From: Calditrichota bacterium
GTDB taxonomy: Bacteria; Zhuqueibacterota; Zhuqueibacteria; Zhuqueibacterales; Geothermadaptataceae
Length of the DNA: 64,000 nucleotides
Assembly (NCBI GenBank): GCA_008501765.1
Contig: QQUE01000002.1
Location: 370,336 to 434,335 of the forward strand
Reading direction: 5' to 3'
The notes beneath the pieces were generated by a model. It searched no databases and had not been told where the DNA came from. It saw only the letters and a list, made by a program, of their open reading frames with translations. Positions within the stretch are counted from its first letter, which is position 1, and each line of letters begins with the position of its first letter. Shown in pieces: positions 3,765 through 8,903 of this stretch. The position numbers and the translations under genes are program-made.

Positions 3765-3873
3765 TCGAACTGTTCACCCCTTAAGCACTAAATTTAGAGC
3801 AGTTAATTCACACCTTACCCTGCCTTTTTTCTTCATCTCAATATTATAAACTCTCTTTATGGAGGTTTTTATT

Positions 3874-5463
3874 ATGAAACAAGTATTTGCCTTTTTGCCA
3901 GCGCTGAAATCTGCGCTTCTTTTTTTTCTTTTTCTGCCGGGTGTTTCTCTTACACAAACCAATTTTGTCAAGTATGCCGGTAACCCAATCTTGCCTTTGG
4001 GAAACACAGGAAACTGGGACGATACCGAAGCGGCATATGCTACGGTTTTGTTTGACGGAACTATACATCAAATGTGGTATAGCGGTGCCCCGCAGGAGGA
4101 TACCTATAGAATCGGCTACGCCACTTCTACAGATGGACTAAACTGGATTAAAGATGCGACGAATCCAGTCCTTGGTCTGGGTGCTGCAGGTACGTTCGAT
4201 AGCATCAACTTGTGGCTGCCGGCTGTTCTCTTTGATGGATCGCAGTATGAAATGTGGTATTCCGGTGGTCTCACCGCCTCCGGGATAGGGTTTGCAACCT
4301 CTCCCGATCCGGTATCATGGAGCAGGCCGGGAAGCGGTCCTGTTTTGGCCAAAGGTAGCTCCGGCGCATGGGATGAGAGTTATGCTTTCCGTCCGGTTGT
4401 CCTGCGCAGTGATACGCTGTACCATATGTGGTATACAGGTCGGTCAGCAAGCGATTTATGGCAGACCGGCTATGCGACTTCCACATTTGGTATAACCTGG
4501 GACAAGCACTCCAATAACCCGGTGTTGCCTATAGGTGCAGCAGGCACCTGGGAGGATAGAGCGGTGGCAGCCGGGAGCATACTTTTTGAAGACGGGCAAT
4601 ATCAAATGTGGTATCATGGAGCGAGAAATAATCTTTCAGACTACAATATCGGCTATGCAACTTCTCCGGATGGCATTAATTGGACAAAACATCCAAATAA
4701 TCCAATTTTGAAATCAAGCACCAATGGCTGGGACCTCATCAACGTCGGATTTCCATGCGTAATTAAAGAGGGAAATCGTTATCGCATGTGGTATACCGGA
4801 CGAAGATCTGGAAGTATCGATCGCCTCGGCTATGCCGAAGATTTCAGCAAGGCTGCGCATGTCGACAGCATTCGAGTATCTTCCAATACAGTGAGCGTTT
4901 CCGACACGGTTTTTTTTGATGCCTACATCGCAAATCCGCATACCGAGAACCTCACGGCCCAGGCGCGGATCAAGAGCAATGATGGCAGTGTCAGTGAACT
5001 GGTTGATCTGACGGATGCCGGCAATAACGTTTGGCAGGGCCAGTGGGTAGTTCCTGCTGATGGGCATGATTATTCTGCGGGCGTCTCTCTCAACAACTTG
5101 AGTGCCGGTTATGTCCACAACAGTTTTGACTGGGGTATCTTTGATGAATTCAGCTCAATAGTGACTAGCTTAAATGATGATACGCGAGGCACGGTACCGG
5201 CTCAATTTGCATTACATCAAAACTACCCAAATCCCTTCAATCCGACAACAACCATTGAATTCTCTTTGCCGAAAAGCAGTTTCGTGATGCTGCAAGTATA
5301 CAACTTACTTGGGACGGAAGTCGCTACCTTACTGGAAACGCATAAACCGGCTGGCAAGCATGTCGTGAGTTTCGATGCCATGGCGCTGGCGTCCGGCATC
5401 TACTACTACACTTTGACTACAGGCGATTTCAAACAATCGCGCAAGATGCTTTTGCTGCGGTAA
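3874..5463 (+). CDS. Secreted glycosidase-like five-bladed propeller protein with T9SS sorting domain
   Basis: A secreted protein of 529 residues. The start is set at 3874 because GGAGG at 3861-3865 is spaced 8 nt from it; the earlier in-frame ATG at 3859 overlaps that ribosome site. A signal peptide (MKQVF... hydrophobic to about residue 25) is followed by five similar blades of about 60 residues with recurring Y-x-M-W-Y-x-G, G-Y-A-T-S-x-D-G-x-x-W and N-P-V-L. This is the layout of the GH43/62/32/68/130 propeller superfamily. I cannot place it in one family or name a substrate, and it may be non-catalytic. A linker domain follows, and the last 80 residues are a type A T9SS sorting domain (QNYPNPFNPTTTI, then LLGTEVATLL, ending KMLLLR). 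It is therefore expected on the cell surface or released. The neighbouring HTCS probably controls it (inference). Confidence 0.85.
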   Translation: MKQVFAFLPALKSALLFFLFLPGVSLTQTNFVKYAGNPILPLGNTGNWDDTEAAYATVLFDGTIHQMWYSGAPQEDTYRIGYATSTDGLNWIKDATNPVLGLGAAGTFDSINLWLPAVLFDGSQYEMWYSGGLTASGIGFATSPDPVSWSRPGSGPVLAKGSSGAWDESYAFRPVVLRSDTLYHMWYTGRSASDLWQTGYATSTFGITWDKHSNNPVLPIGAAGTWEDRAVAAGSILFEDGQYQMWYHGARNNLSDYNIGYATSPDGINWTKHPNNPILKSSTNGWDLINVGFPCVIKEGNRYRMWYTGRRSGSIDRLGYAEDFSKAAHVDSIRVSSNTVSVSDTVFFDAYIANPHTENLTAQARIKSNDGSVSELVDLTDAGNNVWQGQWVVPADGHDYSAGVSLNNLSAGYVHNSFDWGIFDEFSSIVTSLNDDTRGTVPAQFALHQNYPNPFNPTTTIEFSLPKSSFVMLQVYNLLGTEVATLLETHKPAGKHVVSFDAMALASGIYYYTLTTGDFKQSRKMLLLR

Positions 5464-5657: not shown

Positions 5658-5705
5658 TGCGGTGTTTTACTATGCCCGAATAGCACCTTTGCAGGTGTGA
5701 AAAAG

Positions 5706-6170
5706 TTACTTACCTAAGTTTATCAACTTAAATCCGGTTTTGAAAACATAGAGCGAACCGGACTCATCCCCATAAACCCACGCTTCATCCGAAGTGAAAT
5801 CATAATAATCGAAATCTACATTGAATACAAGCCTATTGGAGAGCTGATACTCTGCGCGTGCCTTAAAATTCATGAATCCATAAGACAGATCGGAGTACTG
5901 CGGAATTCCGCTATAATCATAGTCAGATGCTTCGATTTCCTCAAGCGCTTCATGCACTTCAGGTGTGTCGAGGTTCATTTCGACTTTATCAAAAGCGGCT
6001 TCACTTTTACTATAATTTCCCTGTAACCAGAATTTGAGTTTTGAATTGACTTTAAAATTCAGCCCGGCATAAAGCACGCTGTTTGTACTTTCATAATCAA
6101 ATTCACCATAAACAGAACCAAAATGGAGCAATGAATCACTAACGTTTAAGACGCCACCTGCGCCTCCCAT
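5706..6170 (-). CDS. C-terminal part of MtrB/PioB-type outer-membrane barrel, downstream of in-frame UGA
   Basis: A 154-residue beta-strand-rich stretch, with alternating hydrophobic/polar residues and repeated aromatic-rich hairpins such as FWLQGNYSKSEAAF and VFNVDFDYYDF. It is in the same reading frame as the 591-residue barrel protein upstream. The two are separated only by a TGA at 6180-6182 and three codons. Together they make 749 codons, a normal size for the MtrB/PioB family. I read this as the last strands of the same barrel, not as a separate gene. The ATG at 6170-6168 is simply the first Met after the stop and has a GGGAGG-like run after it, not before it. The segment shows no decay, which suggests recent interruption, readthrough or a sequence error. 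Confidence 0.75.
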   Translation of the reverse strand: MGGAGGVLNVSDSLLHFGSVYGEFDYESTNSVLYAGLNFKVNSKLKFWLQGNYSKSEAAFDKVEMNLDTPEVHEALEEIEASDYDYSGIPQYSDLSYGFMNFKARAEYQLSNRLVFNVDFDYYDFTSDEAWVYGDESGSLYVFKTGFKLINLGK

Positions 6171-6179
6171 GTGGGACGC

Positions 6180-6182
6180 TCA
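6180..6182 (-). other. In-frame UGA codon interrupting the MtrB-like gene, with adjacent hairpin
   Basis: The minus-strand frame reads A-L-M-D-G-UGA-A-S-H-M-G-G and stays open on both sides. Directly 3' of the UGA the message can fold into GCG-UCCC / GGGA-(GG)-CGC around an ACAU loop (6179-6160). UGA is an ordinary stop elsewhere in the window (for example the ccmA gene and two genes near 15.9 and 16.6 kb). The most likely original codon is UGG (Trp). Confidence 0.7.
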
Positions 6183-7955
6183 GCCATCCATTAGCGCAAC
6201 CGCCGCTAATCCATTTTGTGTCTGTTTTGCATAAGTATAATTGGCGAAAAAGTTAACATTGTCGTTTGGCATCAATGTCAAGCCCAAACTCGGAGCCATT
6301 GTCGTTTGCTGGAAATCCAGTTCTTTCTGTGTGTCATTGGAACCCATTTTCAGGTTTAAACCGGCATCCAGTTTCACCTTTTTATTGGGTTGCAATTTAA
6401 CAGTTGCTTTGACTGTCTGCACCATGGCCGGCATGCTGCTGATATTGCCGTAGCGCAAATCGTCTCGCAAATAGTAATAGGTGTGGGGGGCGCCCTCAGA
6501 AGGTGCGAGAGCACCATCCCGGCCATACACCTCAAACATTTGATCCACAGGAGAGAACGGATTGTCGATATTCTCCAAACCGAGCTTCAAATTACCAGTG
6601 AATTTTCCTGTTGGACGATAGCGTACACCCAATTCAAAACGTGTTTTATCCGTTTTGAAATTTGCACCTTCAACCGGATAATCGTCCCGTTCAACGGAAT
6701 TAAATCCGAGAAGTGCAGTCAGGCGATAGCTTCTCTTGGGTTGATAAATAACCTTGGCGCTACCCTTCAAATCGGTGCGGGTCAGATTGGAATAGCGAAT
6801 GTAATCGAGGTCGATATTTCCTGCACCACGATTTTCACGCCAAAGCGGATTATCAATCCCCAACGCTTCGTTTTCCAAACGACGGTACTGACCAGCAAGA
6901 ATGAGCTTGGTTTTCTTCGCCAACGGCGTGCTGTAATTACCATTGAAATTATTGCCGGTGACTTTCAGATCACCATTAATAGTAACATTGGGATCACTCA
7001 ATTCAGCGTCATTGGTTAGCGACAAATTCTGATATTGCAGCAACAGACGGCCATTGCCAACATCGGACTTCGCCGTTACTTTGTGGCTCAGTTTATTGGT
7101 TTCAGGATAACCGGTAATTGCAGCCTCCTCGCCGTGAAAATTCAGGCGCGAGCCAAATTCAACAAAATAATTACTCGTTACACCTGAATTTGGATCCGTC
7201 CAGATATAACCACGACCGGGGTGCCCTGCGCTGTCATAGTCTGCAAAATATGTGCTGGCATCCGACTTGAATTTGCGCAGATTAACTTCGTAAGACAAAT
7301 CTGCAAAACCCAGTGCAGCATCAATTCCAGCCGTCAATGAATTTGTTTTATTTTCCAAATCCAACGGACGGGACTCGAGGTGGCAAGAGGTACAGTGGTT
7401 ATTTTGGATATGCTGCATCTTACCACTTTCCAATATCGTGCGGTGTGCAGCTCGCAATGTAATCTTGTCGCCTGGCAGCATGAATTTCAGATTTGCTGCA
7501 ATTTCTTCGCGCTGATAACCTAACTGCTCTTCCGGATTGATCAATTCATGGGTTAACATTTTACCGCCTGGCGCCGTTCCTTCCCGATTAAAAGATTCAC
7601 GACCGGTGATATTTTCCAACAAATCAAGCTGCGTCTGGCGATAAAACGATTTGTAGCTCACATCGGCTAAAATCGATTTACCCAAACGGAAATCTCCGCC
7701 AAACACCATTTGCTTCGGATTGTAATAATAGCCATTAAGCTGTATTTTTTTCAATCCATTGCGGTGGTTTAAATCGAATTTTAATTCTGGAAAAAATCCA
7801 TCTTCATAATATTTGTACTCAGCAACTTTTGGGATATAATTGTCAAAAGATGTGTAATTGCTTCCGACTCCCAAGGACCAGTTCGTCGTTCCCTGTTGTG
7901 CGTGCAGGGGAAGAACCAGTCCGAATACTAACAGTATCAATATTAGTTTCTTCAC
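6180..7955 (-). CDS. MtrB/PioB-type decahaem-associated outer-membrane beta-barrel (N-terminal 591 residues)
   Basis: The outer-membrane porin part of a porin-cytochrome conduit that lets electrons cross the outer membrane. It has a signal peptide (MKKLILILLVFGLVLPLHAQ), then about 570 residues of alternating beta-hairpins with family-like phrases (FGGDFRLGKSILADVSYKSF, KITLRAAHRT). A CxxCH haem motif, C188-T-S-C-H192, sits inside the barrel sequence; MtrB homologues usually have only a CxxC near the N-terminus. Translation begins at 7955 with AGGAGA just upstream, overlapping the stop of the decahaem cytochrome gene 10 bp away, so the two are co-translated. The frame ends at a TGA, after which the same frame continues for 154 codons. 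If UGA is a true stop, the barrel lacks its last strands and its C-terminal insertion signal. Confidence 0.85.
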   Translation of the reverse strand: MKKLILILLVFGLVLPLHAQQGTTNWSLGVGSNYTSFDNYIPKVAEYKYYEDGFFPELKFDLNHRNGLKKIQLNGYYYNPKQMVFGGDFRLGKSILADVSYKSFYRQTQLDLLENITGRESFNREGTAPGGKMLTHELINPEEQLGYQREEIAANLKFMLPGDKITLRAAHRTILESGKMQHIQNNHCTSCHLESRPLDLENKTNSLTAGIDAALGFADLSYEVNLRKFKSDASTYFADYDSAGHPGRGYIWTDPNSGVTSNYFVEFGSRLNFHGEEAAITGYPETNKLSHKVTAKSDVGNGRLLLQYQNLSLTNDAELSDPNVTINGDLKVTGNNFNGNYSTPLAKKTKLILAGQYRRLENEALGIDNPLWRENRGAGNIDLDYIRYSNLTRTDLKGSAKVIYQPKRSYRLTALLGFNSVERDDYPVEGANFKTDKTRFELGVRYRPTGKFTGNLKLGLENIDNPFSPVDQMFEVYGRDGALAPSEGAPHTYYYLRDDLRYGNISSMPAMVQTVKATVKLQPNKKVKLDAGLNLKMGSNDTQKELDFQQTTMAPSLGLTLMPNDNVNFFANYTYAKQTQNGLAAVALMDG

Positions 7956-7964
7956 ATTCTTCTC

Positions 7965-8903
7965 CTATCTCGTTAAAGCGCTGCTGCCGATTCCCTGGGA
8001 CGGCATATCAGAGCCATGAATTGCATTGTGACATTGGGTACATTTTGTCAGCATGCCTTTTTTAAACGCATCTAAAGTGGTAACTCCACCTCGATCGGGA
8101 AACAACGGTGCCTGAAAAGTACCTTCCAATCCCGTAAGCGTTGTGTGAAAGTGCATCGGGTGACAGCTCATACACAATGCAGGCTCGCTTTGGGCCAGCA
8201 AATTGTTGGCTGTCGTTCCGTGGGGACTGTGGCAAATACCGCAGTCTTCGTTGACTGGATCATGCTCAAATACAAATGGTCCTTCTTTCGAAGCATGGCA
8301 GGTCAGGCAAAGCTCACGCGACTCCTCCGACATGGCAAATTTGTTATCTCCTCCATGAACTTCATGGCAATCCTGGCACGTCATCAATCCCTCCTCCACG
8401 GGGTGATGCGAAGGCAGCATAAATTGAGCGACAATATCGGTGTGGCATTGCTGGCAGAGCTGATCTGCCGGTTGGCTCAGGAGATTTTCGCTGGTCGAAT
8501 GCACCGTGTGACAATCGCTGCAGCCGTTGGCTGCTTCGTGGTGCGCGGTGCCAAATGCCGATTCAAATTGCGAACCGCCGTGGCAATCCAGACAGACACT
8601 TTTTTCTGTGCTGTTGAAATCTCTTTTTGGATTAAAAATCAACATCTCGTCTTCCTCTTCAGCATGTAAAGAGCCGGGACCATGGCATGACTCACACAAA
8701 AAGCCTTCATCTTCTGCGTAGACTTTGTGAGCACTTTTAGCAAAAGATTCAGCGATGTCTTCGTGGCAGTCGGCACACTCAGCATCACCAATCTTTTTGG
8801 CTTTTTCATCACCAGCAGCGTAAGCTGGACTGATTTGAATGATCCCAAAACTAAATACTGTCAGGGCGAGAAGGGATGCTAGACTCTTCAATTTTCTAGC
8901 CAT
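7965..8903 (-). CDS. Periplasmic decahaem c-type cytochrome, MtrA/DmsE type
   Basis: A periplasmic electron carrier that inserts into its partner barrel and passes electrons across the outer membrane. The 312 residues carry a signal peptide (to about ...SPAYA) and ten CxxCH motifs: CADCH, CESCH, CLDCH, CSDCH, CQQCH, CQDCH, CLTCH, CGICH, CMSCH and CTQCH. That haem number and the length match MtrA/DmsE/PioA. GGAGGAG stands 5 nt before the ATG. The MtrB-like gene follows 9 bp downstream. No outer-surface MtrC/OmcA-type cytochrome is present in the window, so the terminal donor or acceptor is unknown. Maturation needs a c-type cytochrome assembly system; ccmABCD lies at 26-28 kb. Confidence 0.93.
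   Translation of the reverse strand: MARKLKSLASLLALTVFSFGIIQISPAYAAGDEKAKKIGDAECADCHEDIAESFAKSAHKVYAEDEGFLCESCHGPGSLHAEEEDEMLIFNPKRDFNSTEKSVCLDCHGGSQFESAFGTAHHEAANGCSDCHTVHSTSENLLSQPADQLCQQCHTDIVAQFMLPSHHPVEEGLMTCQDCHEVHGGDNKFAMSEESRELCLTCHASKEGPFVFEHDPVNEDCGICHSPHGTTANNLLAQSEPALCMSCHPMHFHTTLTGLEGTFQAPLFPDRGGVTTLDAFKKGMLTKCTQCHNAIHGSDMPSQGIGSSALTR

Follow-up and report, generated by a model that had tools for sequence, protein, structure and literature searches.

Results

The window analysed here is a stretch of 64,000 nucleotides from the genome of a Calditrichota bacterium (contig QQUE01000002.1, positions 370,336 to 434,335). A reading frame on its minus strand starts with GTG at 7955 and runs for 591 codons (7955–6183) to a single in-frame UGA at 6182–6180, after which the same frame continues for 157 codons and ends in TAA at 5708–5706. 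When the UGA is read through, the whole gene (5706–7955, minus strand) gives a protein of 749 residues, predicted to be an MtrB/PioB-like outer-membrane barrel selenoprotein resembling GSU2204/OmcL, with selenocysteine (Sec) as residue 592. The initial annotation of this DNA had likewise described 591 codons followed by one UGA, but gave 154 codons beyond it, a figure that had been counted from an ATG at 6170. It was right that UGA serves as a stop elsewhere in the window. Directly upstream, in the same direction, lies a gene for a decaheme c-type cytochrome of the GSU2203/OmcK and DmsE type (7965–8903, minus strand), in which we count 10 CXXCH motifs by eye.

The part before the UGA (6183–7955, minus strand) scores 427.1 bits against the NCBIfam profile NF041027 (GSU2204_Se_pt_1; cut-off 350), whose full name is “GSU2204 family CXXCH-containing (seleno)protein”. 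The alignment places residues 7–591 on profile positions 2–580 of 580, and since the profile is matched to its last position, its end is the very point where the frame meets the UGA. There is one CXXCH, with the sequence CTSCH, at residues 188–192 in a predicted loop. The part after the UGA (5706–6179, minus strand; 157 codons and the stop) appears to hold the last barrel strands, and its matches to the MtrB/PioB models stay below their cut-offs (PF11854, 18.9 bits versus 23; TIGR03509, 18.8 versus 240.05). The full-length read-through protein matches neither of these two models. The protein is thus MtrB-like by its setting and its best structure match, and not a scored member of PF11854 or TIGR03509.

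A structure model of the read-through protein, made with three sequences, is poor (mean pLDDT 50.3, pTM 0.42), though it consists of alternating strands. Among solved structures it matches best 6r2q_B, the MtrB chain of the MtrCAB complex from Shewanella (E = 1.3e-10, TM-scores 0.27–0.29). A sequence search against solved structures gave no meaningful match to any chain. To our knowledge MtrB carries no Sec. The low-confidence model has residue 592 in a loop between strands 567–586 and 615–635, with five more strands after it. This loop is long and is predicted to share its side of the barrel with the loop that bears the CXXCH, the side being judged from loop lengths in that low-confidence model. 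The quality of the model does not allow Sec to be positioned relative to the CXXCH.

The UGA and the tail in relatives

We looked for further copies by profile search and by scanning genome contigs. Within the host phylum NF041027 scores over its cut-off in 2 of 82 genomes, the window's own and G031, and within that search it is absent from the two other genomes of the host genus. In a second phylum (40 genomes, grouped with G082) it is over cut-off in G082, and in G117 the gene is split into three pieces. The scan of contigs gave matches in L023, which belongs to G082, and in L024; the latter has the same sequence at this place as locus L019 of G031, so that there are four distinct copies in total: the window, L019 (G031), L023 (G082) and L034 (G117). 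They come from two phyla, and the three relatives are metagenome-assembled genomes. Weak partial matches to NF041027 also occur in G001, G036 and G113 (E from 4e-5 to 8e-4), and no relatives were found in plasmids or in viral contigs.

All four copies have ATGGATGGC or ATGGACGGC followed by TGA GCG at the same position, and none has a Trp or Cys codon in place of the UGA. The tails are 41–50% identical in all six pairs. For the full-length copies, three in number, identities are 39–48% upstream of the UGA and 41–45% downstream of it, so the tail is about as conserved as the rest. When the tail was shuffled by mononucleotide 10,000 times, the frame stayed open once. The initial annotation was right that the downstream part is undamaged. 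The CXXCH is present in the other two full-length copies (L019 and L023). In G117 the barrel gene (L034 2022–3829) is frame-shifted and the CXXCH stretch is missing, but the UGA, the hairpin described below and the tail remain; as this genome is fragmentary, the damage may be a matter of assembly.

These copies bear on two other explanations. The first, listed in the initial annotation, is that an ancestral Trp codon was recently lost by nonsense mutation or sequencing error and that the window copy is broken. TGA is indeed one base away from TGG and the remainder of the frame is undamaged. However, different genomes in two phyla all have UGA and never TGG, which already contradicts this view, the family profile itself ends at the UGA point, and the genome has machinery for Sec (see below); we consider such a mutation or error highly improbable. 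The second is that two proteins are made, one of 591 residues and another restarted at the ATG at 6170–6168, which lies in frame four codons past the UGA. This ATG is not kept, the same codon being CTG, CTT and TTT in the three relatives, whereas the Ala and the His that precede it are kept in all four copies. On inspection by eye the tail looks like the closing part of a barrel and shows no signal peptide; we regard a restart as extremely improbable.

A conserved hairpin after the UGA

We aligned the four stretches that follow the UGA (gapless, 61 columns) and folded them with RNAalifold, supplying no structure. Columns 19–23 pair with columns 29–33, which corresponds in the window to a likely core of a bacterial SECIS hairpin at 6164–6150 on the minus strand (GGCGC-AGGUG-GCGUC), extendable to 6166–6148 in the window sequence. 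The other three copies have GGCGC-CGGUG-GCGCC, GGCAC-CGGUG-GUGCC and GGUGC-AGGUA-GCACC. Pairing is kept in 20 of 20 cells, two of the five pairs have changed on both sides and the GGU of the loop is invariant. With four sequences and two covarying pairs the statistics of this covariation are thin, its value being reached by 32 of 500 shuffles. Published rules for bacterial SECIS elements (PMC13188914, section 5) give a loop of 3–9 nt, a stem of 4–16 bp, a spacing of 16–37 nt, a G within the first two loop positions and a minimum free energy of at most -7.5 kcal/mol. The hairpin agrees with every one of them: its loop, AGGUG, has 5 nt with G at the second position, the stem has 5–7 bp, the distance from UGA to loop is 20 nt and the energy is -9.5 kcal/mol (nt 13–42). 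An Rfam scan of 5700–8000 yielded a single match that did not reach its gathering score, and we took it as chance.

The stem-loop that the initial annotation had noted directly after the UGA (UCCC-ACAU-GGGA) can be drawn, and the window sequence taken alone folds best in this way (over 45 nt, -15.8 versus -13.7 kcal/mol for the likely SECIS hairpin), but this stem-loop does not stand out from shuffled sequences (z = -1.29, with 19 of 200 at least as stable) and is not conserved in the relatives. Three of its eight pairs are broken in two of the four sequences and a fourth in one. As a candidate SECIS it was rejected, with 25 of 32 cells paired (78.1%) across the four copies and a loop, ACAU, without an early G. 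This fold also uses bases beside the UGA, which would probably lie under a ribosome paused at that codon.

Selenocysteine machinery

The host genome of the window (5.9 Mb, 98.9% complete) has a complete set of SelA, SelB, SelD and tRNA-Sec. There is one tRNA-Sec (66.4 bits, over cut-off; anticodon TCA by ARAGORN), with selB (342.5 bits) about 2 kb from it and selA (544.2 bits) on another contig. The selD gene (353 bits; L038 1447–2481, minus strand, on G000:C3) has one in-frame UGA of its own, within an N-terminal SSCGU motif; past this UGA lies a hairpin whose loop, GGUC, begins 17 nt downstream of it. A Sec-containing SelD would be expected in an organism that uses Sec. No stop interrupts the host's best match to formate dehydrogenase alpha, which by that test is thus not a Sec form.

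The tRNA-Sec is over cut-off in all four genomes that carry the barrel gene. Three of them also have SelB over cut-off; in G117 it is split into neighbouring fragments of a single contig, each below cut-off. SelB is also present in G069 and G073, two relatives without the barrel gene.

One might instead propose that the stop is leaky, or read through in a regulated way, with an ordinary residue such as Trp being inserted to give a short and a long form. A conserved extension past a stop is the trace this would be expected to leave. Against it stand the complete Sec machinery, a covarying hairpin that resembles a SECIS and is suitably spaced from the UGA, and the fact that the family is already listed among selenoproteins, and we find ordinary readthrough very improbable.

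The decaheme neighbour

In all four loci the barrel gene is adjoined by a decaheme gene. The cytochromes in L019 and L034 score over the cut-off of 325 for NF041028 (GSU2203 decaheme), while those of the window (316.9 bits) and L023 (316.6 bits) fall just below it; the window's cytochrome is over cut-off for the DmsE/MtrA-like family TIGR03508. Since the barrel gene stands behind a gene of the GSU2203/OmcK type, it probably encodes the barrel of a conduit like OmcKL. The porin-cytochrome conduit OmcK-OmcL is described in PMC10553843, and PMC4070692, where GSU2203 is named OmcK, reports that in Geobacter both this gene and GSU2204 are up-regulated with hematite and with magnetite. Taken together, the two papers suggest to us that OmcL is GSU2204. 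By family match the present locus appears to have the same gene pair, with two genes and no adjoining second cytochrome gene. A difference may lie in the position of the cytochrome: PMC10553843 places that of OmcKL outside the cell, whereas the DmsE-type match suggests that the one in the window sits inside the barrel. The words selenocysteine and selenoprotein are absent from the main text of PMC10553843.

Two further observations concern the surroundings of such genes. In a region elsewhere in the host genome (G000:C2:48963–61536) several weak matches resembling multiheme cytochromes are clustered, perhaps more genes for electron transfer. In L023 a gene that by eye resembles a sigma-54-type regulator diverges from the decaheme-barrel pair, with a cytochrome b-like ORF beyond it (1180–2532 and 4–492).

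Discussion

The UGA that seems to end this barrel gene early almost certainly encodes selenocysteine, in line with the catalogued GSU2204 family of selenoproteins, and the gene would therefore be intact rather than broken. Sec had been rated the least likely reading of this UGA in the initial annotation; the evidence now places it first, including two of the checks proposed there, an alignment of orthologues (UGA in four of four, no Trp or Cys) and a search of the genome for selA, selB and selC. No Cys homologue was found among the relatives searched, and hence there is no Sec/Cys pair in support of Sec. We hold with high confidence to the joint reading of a GSU2204-family (OmcL-like) barrel selenoprotein, with Sec 592 inserted by way of the hairpin at 6164–6150, that most likely forms a conduit with the decaheme cytochrome.

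From these data we infer the insertion of Sec itself, entry of the barrel into the membrane and a role in a conduit, as well as any chemical role of the Sec. A ribosome arriving at the UGA (6182–6180) would meet the hairpin at 6164–6150, which would recruit SelB with Sec-tRNA(Sec); Sec would be inserted as residue 592, and translation would continue for 157 codons to supply the last barrel strands. Without Sec the chain would end at residue 591 and should lack these strands, so that the short form would presumably not make a working barrel. Judging from family and neighbour, the completed barrel and the decaheme cytochrome probably form an outer-membrane porin-cytochrome conduit, through which electrons would be moved across the outer membrane. 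Because Sec sits in a loop before the last strands, one could go further and imagine a conduit gated by selenium, where Sec is needed for barrel closure and membrane entry and Sec 592 might act as a redox relay or a heme-side ligand at the mouth; we think this model unlikely.

That the GSU2204 family includes selenoproteins is already known. A 2022 table (PMC9312934) lists as a selenoprotein an outer membrane barrel protein of the MtrB/PioB family, and a 2026 table (PMC13188914) lists NF041027 by name. The window's gene shares with this family a match over the whole profile, one CXXCH, a UGA directly past the profile end and a decaheme neighbour resembling GSU2203. The copies described here differ in coming from Calditrichota and one further phylum, with roughly 40–50% identity among them; the direct comparison covers these copies rather than those of Geobacter. 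Beside GSU2204, PMC13188914 lists ExtKL (NF040886) of Geobacter, also a proposed Sec protein of electron transfer, though ExtKL is a selenoprotein of the cytochrome type (PMC5877670) and the present protein is a barrel. New here are the copies from Calditrichota and from a second phylum, the covariation of the likely SECIS and the predicted loss of the last strands without selenium. None of the papers searched mentions both ‘Calditrich’ and ‘selenocysteine’.

An apparent pseudogene thus becomes what is almost certainly an intact selenoprotein gene, which corrects how genes of this sort would be annotated, as a truncated barrel and a stray ORF. Finding this family in Calditrichota as well as in a neighbouring phylum also raises the question of why selenium should be used in the barrel of an electron conduit.

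The window also holds, convergent with the barrel gene, a plus-strand gene (3859–5463) for a protein with a C-terminus of the PNPFNPTTTIEFSLP type, which we take to be a type IX secretion sorting domain.
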